DNA of 64,000 bases, from positions 1 through 64,000 of the forward strand of contig CANMTR010000006.1 in assembly GCA_947500825.1 (NCBI GenBank), read 5' to 3'. A program made the translations under genes and the position numbers. This stretch comes from an uncultured Paracoccaceae bacterium (GTDB lineage: Bacteria > Pseudomonadota > Alphaproteobacteria > Rhodobacterales > Rhodobacteraceae). A model generated the notes under the pieces. The model saw only the letters and a list, made by a program, of their open reading frames with translations, made no database searches and had not been told where the DNA came from. Shown here in pieces: positions 39,821 through 41,469 of this stretch (positions are counted from its first letter, which is position 1; every line of letters starts with the position of its first letter).

Positions 39821-40177
<357 letters not shown>

Positions 40178-40210: not shown

Positions 40211-40244
40211 TTGGCGTGCGAACGCCGATGTTCTATATATGTTC
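40211..40244 (+). promoter_or_regulatory. SOS-type (LexA) promoter of the OB-fold gene
   Basis: GTTC-TATATAT-GTTC (40230-40244) is an exact alphaproteobacterial LexA box. Its central TATATA (40234-40239) is also a good -10, and TTGGCG (40211-40216) lies 17 bases upstream as the -35. The predicted start of transcription falls at about 40246-40247, the A of the ATG, so the mRNA would be leaderless. LexA bound here would cover the -10. Confidence 0.75.
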
Positions 40245-40246
40245 TC

Positions 40247-40639
40247 ATGTCGACCGCCTCGCTCCCCTGGCCCAGGCCGCCCGTCGCCATCCCCCATGGC
40301 TGGCTCGATCGGCCGCCCGACCGCGCGCGGGTCACGGTGGCGGGCCTGGTGCTGCTGCGCCAGCGGCCCGGCACCGCCAGGGGCGTCGTGTTCCTGACGC
40401 TCGAGGACGAGACGGGGGTGTGCAACGTCGTGGTCTGGCGCCGCATCTACGAGCGCGACCGCCGCGCGGTGATCGCCGGGCGCTGCCTGCAGGTGACCGG
40501 CCGGGTCGAGCGCGCCGGCGGCTCCACCCACGTGATCGCCGAGCGGGTGGACGACATCAGCGCCATGCTCGACGAGATCCTGCGCGAAGAGACGGATCAG
40601 CCGTTCCAGCAGACATCCCACAGCCCCTCCAGGTCGTAG
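40247..40639 (+). CDS. Stand-alone OB-fold protein related to the DnaE2 C-terminus
   Basis: This 130-residue protein is almost entirely the nucleic-acid-binding OB domain found at the C-terminus of error-prone polymerase DnaE2 (ARVTVAGLVLLRQRPG, VVFLTLEDETGVCNVVVW, LQVTGRVERAGGSTHVIAERVDDI, about 27-108). The polymerase and PHP domains are missing, and no imuA, imuB or dnaE2 lies around it. A perfect SOS promoter places the transcription start at its ATG. The C-terminal 14 residues overlap the convergent HTH gene. It is either a remnant of an imuA-imuB-dnaE2 locus or a functional small SOS-induced single-strand-binding protein. The intact frame and promoter favour the second possibility but do not prove it. 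Confidence 0.75.
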   Translation: MSTASLPWPRPPVAIPHGWLDRPPDRARVTVAGLVLLRQRPGTARGVVFLTLEDETGVCNVVVWRRIYERDRRAVIAGRCLQVTGRVERAGGSTHVIAERVDDISAMLDEILREETDQPFQQTSHSPSRS

Positions 40640-41469
40640 CCGCCCAGGGCCGCGGCCCGCGCAGCGAAGGCCGGCCCGCGGCAGAAGGCCGCGAGGGCCT
40701 GCAACCCGGGCTCGAACCATGCCCGGCGATCCACCAGGAGATCGTAACGCTCCGTCAGGACCGGCACGAAGTCGAGGCCGAAGGCCCGCGCCGCGCCCTC
40801 GAGCCCCAGGGTCGCGTCGGCCGCGCCCCTGGCGACGGCCTCGGCCGCGTCCGTCTCGGTCCGGGCGGTGGCGGACAGGGTCAGCCCGGCCGGGTCCAGC
40901 CCCGCCCCGGCCAGGAGCGCGTCCAGCAGGGCCGCCGTCCCGGACCCCGGCTGGCGCGGCGCGACCCGGAGGCCGGCAAGGTCCGCGACCGTCTCCGCGC
41001 GCGGGCCGCCGGGGCGCAGGACCAGCCCGCGCCTGCGCCCGGCGAAGGACAGGAGCGCGGCCGGACGGCCCGCGCAGGCCGCCGCCACCGGGCCCACGTT
41101 CCACGCGCCGCCCATGGGGTCGCGCAGATGCAAGCCCGCAGCCACGCCCTCGCCCTGCGCGAACCGGTCGAGCCCGTCCGAGGACCCGTCGAAATAGGTG
41201 GCGAGGCCGGAGCCCGATTCGCGGATCGCCCAGTCGACGAGCGGGTCGTGGCTCCCGAGGACGATGGGCGGGGGGGTCGCCGCGGCGGCCCCCGTCCCGG
41301 CGATCCAGTCGCGGACCTCGCGGGCGGGGAACAGCAGCTTGCCGGTGGCCCGCGACACCGGCACGCGGCCATTCGCCGCCAAGTCGTAGACCTTGCGCTC
41401 CTTGATCCGCAGGAGCGACGCCAGTTCCGGCACGGTCAGGAATTCGGGCTCCGGGTCGGTCACGGCCAT
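40597..41469 (-). CDS. HTH regulator with periplasmic-binding-like ligand domain, linked to tupBCA
   Basis: This 290-residue cytoplasmic protein has an excisionase-type winged helix at the N-terminus (LTVPELASLLRIKERKVYDLAANGRVPVSRATG, about 11-44). A type-2 periplasmic-binding-protein fold lacking a signal peptide follows (about 70-285), with GSGTAALLDALLAGAGL near 173-189. This architecture (COG1910-like) is common near molybdate and tungstate transporter genes and is thought to sense the oxyanion. It lies 66 bases downstream of tupA on the same strand, so it is probably part of the operon and may act on the upstream palindrome at 43860. Confidence 0.85.
   Translation of the reverse strand: MAVTDPEPEFLTVPELASLLRIKERKVYDLAANGRVPVSRATGKLLFPAREVRDWIAGTGAAAATPPPIVLGSHDPLVDWAIRESGSGLATYFDGSSDGLDRFAQGEGVAAGLHLRDPMGGAWNVGPVAAACAGRPAALLSFAGRRRGLVLRPGGPRAETVADLAGLRVAPRQPGSGTAALLDALLAGAGLDPAGLTLSATARTETDAAEAVARGAADATLGLEGAARAFGLDFVPVLTERYDLLVDRRAWFEPGLQALAAFCRGPAFAARAAALGGYDLEGLWDVCWNG

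Follow-up and report, generated by a model that had tools for sequence, protein, structure and literature searches.

A free-standing OB-domain gene behind a LexA-type operator, probably a subunit of a split DnaE2 polymerase in Rhodobacteraceae

The gene at 40247..40639 (plus strand) of the window, by which is meant the whole stretch of 64,000 nucleotides analysed from an uncultured Paracoccaceae bacterium, encodes a protein of 130 amino acids that probably serves as the OB subunit in a DnaE2 (ImuC) translesion polymerase split into two polypeptides. The two proteins tile the DnaE2 family model, their genes occur together in genomes of the family, LexA-type boxes are usual on both genes, and fused as well as half-way genomes exist. 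In a large Rhodobacteraceae/Roseobacteraceae group the polymerase gene ends in a linker after the helix-hairpin-helix domain, and the OB domain has a gene to itself, whose promoter is probably leaderless and presumably repressed by LexA. According to the proposed mechanism, upon DNA damage LexA would be cleaved and the body, the OB subunit, ImuB and ImuA would be induced from separate loci; the OB subunit would then join the body, or the ImuB/clamp assembly, in trans and guide the single-stranded template. Physical association of the OB subunit with the body is predicted, and the pair has a putative error-prone translesion activity. A stronger version is put forward tentatively, at a little under an even chance: the polymerase would be an obligate two-polypeptide enzyme, and its template-handling OB domain a leaderless SOS subunit, dosed separately and joining the polymerase/ImuB/clamp complex in trans. 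The split may make mutagenesis conditional on both genes.

Promoter, conservation and fold of the OB gene

An exact LexA box, a TATATA, a TTGGCG and an intact 130-codon frame had been described by a sequence-only reading, and all were found at 40211-40639. The -35 element, read as TTGGCG (40211..40216, plus strand), is separated by 17 nt from the TATATA -10 element (40234..40239, plus strand), which is located inside the operator GTTCTATATATGTTC (40230..40244, plus strand) and is followed after 7 nt by the ATG at 40247. The operator ends 2 nt before this ATG and is an exact copy of GTTC-N7-GTTC, which we take to be the LexA box of alphaproteobacteria. Since the genome contains 91 such exact sites (both strands), one would start within 120 nt upstream of a given start with a chance of about 0.3%, and an exact box so close to the OB gene would be a rare coincidence. 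The gene has the GTTC-N7-GTTC operator over its promoter by which members of the LexA (SOS) regulon are recognised, and it would be LexA-repressed and damage-induced; the GTTC consensus is also used as a LexA box in the accessible part of PMC6473078. The predicted transcription start is at or adjoining the ATG, and with a -10 element within the operator and an ATG where transcription is expected to begin, the transcript is probably leaderless. The frame is also open 5' of the ATG, as a longer frame from a GTG at 39983; most relatives have a stop close upstream (stop-to-stop frames of 134-174 codons in 13 of 16 loci), which makes the ATG behind the box the credible start. At its 3' end, the gene overlaps a convergent gene for an HTH/PBP-like regulator (40597-41469, minus strand) by 43 nt (40597-40639).

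The OB protein matched 44 of 60 related genomes, both as short frames and as the ends of full DnaE2 proteins. Sixteen short-form loci were oriented and read, and an exact box was found 1-3 nt before the ATG in 15 of them. A free-standing, SOS-boxed gene for a DnaE2-type OB domain had been postulated, and it is conserved: an exact box is present upstream in 80 of 87 non-redundant genes counted as free OB, these 87 including one that is actually a piece of a full dnaE2 (L236) and one counted as unboxed whose box-like upstream sequence lies outside the 150-nt search (L164), and excluding L199, which has no upstream sequence. In 73 of the 87 a start codon follows the box at a distance of 1-4 nt, the arrangement that had been suggested for a search of relatives. 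Within the boxed operators the -10 position has the family consensus TAtnTT, and a TTG precedes the box by 18 or 19 nt in 69 of the 80. Among 32 controls filed as full dnaE2, the 150 nt upstream of the OB part contain no box in any case; these controls include L207, which, as its long upstream frame is not polymerase-like, is probably a free OB gene without an exact box within 150 nt.

Pairwise dN/dS between free OB genes has a median of 0.159 and a maximum of 0.34 in 231 pairs (14 of 245 pairs were dropped, dS being saturated or out of range), which shows that the OB gene is under purifying selection. A pseudogene was rejected on this median. Together with the recurrence of the box-start arrangement, the value upholds the earlier statement that the gene is neither simple decay nor a chance frame. 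The position of the gene is conserved as well. A 2Fe-2S ferredoxin gene (Fer2 by Pfam; 39821..40144, minus strand), for which no functional link is claimed, is its divergent neighbour, and a ferredoxin gene of 75-95% identity is found divergent near the OB gene in 18 of the 18 loci compared (from 20 regions, those of G011 and G354 not being in the comparison), mostly at a distance of a few hundred bases and at 1.3 kb in G135. Therefore, the OB gene occupies one orthologous place in these 18 genomes.

The product has an OB fold of the PF01336 family (tRNA_anti-codon; E 1.4e-12, above the cut-off), with a core of residues 28-111 (40328..40579, plus strand) delimited by Pfam and the predicted structure. 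AlphaFold2, given 120 homologues, predicts a confident OB fold standing alone (pLDDT 90.5, pTM 0.80), a model that supersedes an earlier one from 15 sequences (pLDDT 52.9). With VIA-align many OB folds are found at similar Z, the best being a tRNA synthetase (12.6), with residues 1005-1099 of the Mycobacterium tuberculosis DNA polymerase 7pu7 (Z 11.7, rmsd 2.0, 91 aligned) and PolC (Z 10.9, rmsd 2.6, 91 aligned) among them. Fold searches return mostly OB domains of tRNA synthetases, RPA and CST, no DnaE being present among the best 50 Foldseek matches, and a sequence search against solved structures gives weak matches, the best having E-values of 0.0065 (RPA14) and 0.13 (Pol III alpha). As modelled, the fold is generic and is in itself no proof of function. 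Although an OB fold is shared with SSB-type proteins, the protein differs from these by its PF01336 match and by its grouping with DnaE2 OB domains, both in its match to the family model NF004225 and in the OB tree; a Pfam scan to E 0.01 gave PF01336 and a sub-cut-off PF13742 only, with no SSB-family profile. The OB protein is predicted to bind single-stranded DNA. Free OB proteins open with a stretch resembling WPRPPxxLPH, directly followed by the OB fold, and those of the crown do not have the conserved C-terminal SRDFH tail of full DnaE2, so some old contact has been lost in them.

Polymerase bodies without an OB domain

The genome to which the window belongs encodes a DnaE2 body of 964 aa (G000:C4:161942-164836, minus strand) that ends just before the OB domain, and an exact box, GTTCTTTTTTTGTTC, lies 11 nt before its ATG. 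The NCBIfam DnaE2 model NF004225 (1047 positions) is tiled by the two proteins, positions 4-937 being matched by the body and 949-1042 by the OB protein, and the body alone reaches 1181.4 bits against a curated cut-off of 939. In the body, Pfam recognises no OB but the polymerase, finger and HHH_6 domains and, below threshold, PHP; a full DnaE2 shows the same domains plus the OB. The C-terminal OB is thus missing from the polypeptide, and its gene is found on another contig. ImuB is encoded on C4, some 62 kb away from the body, and C5 has a gene for an ImuA-like protein. Each of the two has an exact box upstream, so that imuA and imuB do accompany dnaE2 in this genome, the ImuA-like protein scoring 40.8 bits with the NCBIfam ImuA model, below its cut-off of 150. 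With four boxed loci on three contigs (C4, C5 and C6), the cassette is dismantled. The sequence-only reading had noted that imuA, imuB and a polymerase body are not nearby, which is correct for contig C6, but the OB gene is no orphan, as all are present, with boxes, on C4 and C5. An internal deletion joining promoter and OB-fold had also been considered; it does not explain the separate body, and the orphan or deletion remnant was rejected because an OB-less body is present in the same genome.

Split bodies are recognisable as a class. All 41 in the tree set keep EPPDIDVDF, presumably the catalytic aspartate motif of the DnaE2 body, and none has an OB in frame: they stop 22-101 residues beyond the point where the body query ends, in most cases shortly after an LTLRAHPxxLLRxxLTP-type linker. 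All 30 full DnaE2 proteins of the set carry the OB in frame. In the fused protein of G354 the linker contains the end motif of split bodies followed by the start motif of free OB proteins, and these two motifs in a row mark the fission point. The bodies of the near relatives G002, G003, G007, G008, G010, G012 and G013 have a similar extra tail of the GRRFxEARGLxRSEAWAKDDExGGLKCxSVRE type after the linker, which is missing in the window genome and in G005.

Boxes are also usual upstream of the bodies. Within 200 nt, 20 of 40 split bodies have an exact box and 37 of 40 a box with at most one mismatch, the body of G026 being left out of this count and that of G024 being entered with an exact box at -151 (the box near its start has one mismatch). 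Seventeen of these 37 boxes contain one mismatch, and such a box is estimated to occur by chance within 200 nt in roughly 1 in 10 cases; the same one-mismatch sequence recurs at the same place.

The possibility has to be considered that the OB gene is a relic of a decaying imuA-imuB-dnaE2 cassette, its promoter and OB having been left by a deletion and kept by chance. The dismantled cassette of the window genome would fit this, as would the one body of 41, in G026, whose match is spread over two reading frames and which may for that reason be broken. A relic would nevertheless hardly show a dN/dS of about 0.16, a box 1-4 nt before the start codon in 73 of 87 genes, the EPPDIDVDF motif in every one of the 41 split bodies and the same ferredoxin gene in each of the 18 loci, and it is regarded as very improbable.

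Co-occurrence of body and OB gene

In a search of 394 genomes of the family (393 genera) for ImuB and the DnaE2 body, those with a short OB gene usually proved to have a DnaE2 match that breaks off ahead of the OB. For a count, the match tables of 150 family genomes (149 genera, at least 95% complete) were read, an OB-less body being defined by a match ending at 956-975 of 1101. Such a body is present in 66 of the 150 genomes and a free OB gene in 63, so homologues are not always parts of a full dnaE2; had they been so in close relatives, this would have refuted the sequence-only reading. Both parts are found in 62 genomes, the body only in 4, the OB only in 1 and neither in 83; they are together in 62 of the 67 genomes having either one (Fisher p 4e-36, a statistic that ignores kinship). 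Four genomes filed under neither (G127, G131, G214 and G022) have short OB frames that are pieces of a full DnaE2, as seen from body or linker sequence or the SRDFH tail. No OB match was obtained in G081, G101, G198 and G216 despite an OB-less body, these being assemblies of about 100-490 contigs. The reverse case is G088, where no DnaE2 body was found, while a boxed OB gene (L154, G088:C4:2083567-2083896), ImuB and an ImuA match are present; the usual ATG after the box reads ATC in this OB gene, with an in-frame ATG inside the box and other possible starts.

It could be imagined that the OB protein has separated permanently from the polymerase and has become an SOS-induced factor in its own right, one that binds single strands or regulates the clamp (by an action on DnaE1, for instance, or by serving as a decoy), and that the OB-less DnaE2 works alone. 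G088, with its OB gene, ImuB and ImuA match and no body, could be such a case, the crown free OB proteins have parted with the DnaE2 tail, and OB-less DnaE2 has been reported with no partner mentioned in the part of PMC3919608 that was accessible. This is unlikely when set against the 62 of 63 genomes with a free OB that also have an OB-less body, and against the short OB frames of G127, G131, G214 and G022, which proved to be fragments of full genes and to retain the SRDFH tail. Because the free OB pairs with an OB-less body, a subunit of a split polymerase is the simpler reading compared with a decoy or a general SSB.

An artefact of assembly or gene finding, in which contig ends or frameshifts have cut off the OB from the rest of a full dnaE2, has to be weighed in the same context, as such cases do exist (G022, G127, G131, G214, G662, G463, G459 and L236). 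In a class-wide search, made with a view to free OB genes outside the family, 176 of 347 genomes matched, 6 of these being in the window's family; outside the family, about 10 of the matches listed are in frames under 1,000 aa, and the three just named as G662, G463 and G459 keep the DnaE2 linker and have SRDFH-type tails. The free OB genes are different: in many genomes OB and body are far apart inside large contigs (G082 and G405, assembled as single contigs, have the two at widely separated places), most have a promoter-like box of their own, and the crown proteins that were read lack the SRDFH tail that the pieces keep. Overall an artefact is scarcely credible, and it is refuted for these loci and for the window genome, in which the OB on C6 and the body on C4 are both inside large contigs.

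G126, a genome of 2.5 Mb, has a very diverged split pair (C9:47115-49694 and C9:370477-370791) with 47% and 36% identity to the queries, the OB gene of which keeps an exact box. G072 combines a split pair on C1 with a second, full DnaE2 at C4:60283-63621 and imuA-imuB on C4.

Fission history and relation to known systems

In a FastTree phylogeny of 71 chosen body rows, 39 split bodies form one clade (support 0.91) with the fused body of G354 as its sister (support 1.0). Outside this clade are G119 (split), G017 (full), and G230 (split) with G030 (fused), the deepest of these branches having a support of 0.24. In the OB tree, the 90 free OB domains are united only in a clade that also takes in G354, G030 and L207 (support 0.58). 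Since G119 and G230 are split while the neighbouring G017, G030 and G354 are fused, and since the deep support is weak, the number of fission events is uncertain: there may have been one with re-fusions, or several. In G230, the OB gene is found about 1 kb behind the body, across an open frame on the opposite strand; it has its own box and ends in SRDFH. Fused G354 and split G230, with its neighbouring genes and old tail, look transitional, and the tail kept in both favours fused ancestors there.

The pair resembles full DnaE2 (ImuC) in its homology over body and OB, its DIDVDF motif, its LexA-type boxes and the presence of ImuA and ImuB in the genome; it differs in that the OB has a gene and a probably leaderless SOS-type promoter to itself and, in the crown, in being without the C-terminal SRDFH tail of the full protein. 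Several DnaE2 sequences without an OB domain have been noted by Timinskas et al. 2013 (PMC3919608), and no separate OB gene is described in the accessible part of that paper, whereas here the missing domain is encoded elsewhere in the same genome under SOS-type control. The same source, as far as accessible, mentions cyanobacterial polymerases split by an intein. These too are C-family polymerases made from two genes, but here the fission is at a domain linker, with short linker stretches at the ends. The literature searched, in which coverage of subscription papers is limited, contained no account of a DnaE2 OB gene standing by itself.

If the polymerase is indeed split, it would be a naturally occurring case of an error-prone DNA polymerase divided by domains, present across many Rhodobacteraceae genera with its parts under separate SOS-type promoters, and it could account for the OB-less DnaE2 sequences noted earlier. 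The role of the DnaE2 OB domain would become accessible to simple gene deletion, annotating DnaE2 as one gene would miss part of the enzyme in this group, and the fused and half-way genomes would offer a series for studies of gene fission.

Genomes of genus g1, the genus label of the window (G001, G004, G006, G009 and G011), have full DnaE2 proteins of other types and no split pair, so cassette replacement or transfer may be frequent. In PLSDB, 787 records match; in 19 of the best 25 the matched stretch is annotated as an error-prone polymerase or dnaE, in 2 it has no such annotation and 4 records are unannotated. A free OB gene was not recognised in these 25. Full DnaE2 is carried by the Dinoroseobacter shibae plasmid NC_009957.1 (PLSDB), and an imuA-imuB-dnaE2 cassette on a 126-kb plasmid is reported in the accessible part of PMC9426580.

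A survey of 2026 (PMC12926913, partly accessible) models DnaE2-ImuB contacts via the PHP and (HhH)2 regions. As both are in the body, the OB could presumably split off without loss of the ImuB contacts. ImuB itself has an insertion with the core GDAIDQEARATRSRAAKRR near residue 160 (numbering of G011 ImuB) in 22 split genomes and in G088, that is, in 23 of 33 rows aligned, the ImuB of the window genome (L152) being among the loci compared. This conserved insertion could be a docking site for the OB subunit. It is present in a diverged form in the fused G354 and absent from G011, G072f, G001, G004, G006, G009, G119, G230 and G017.
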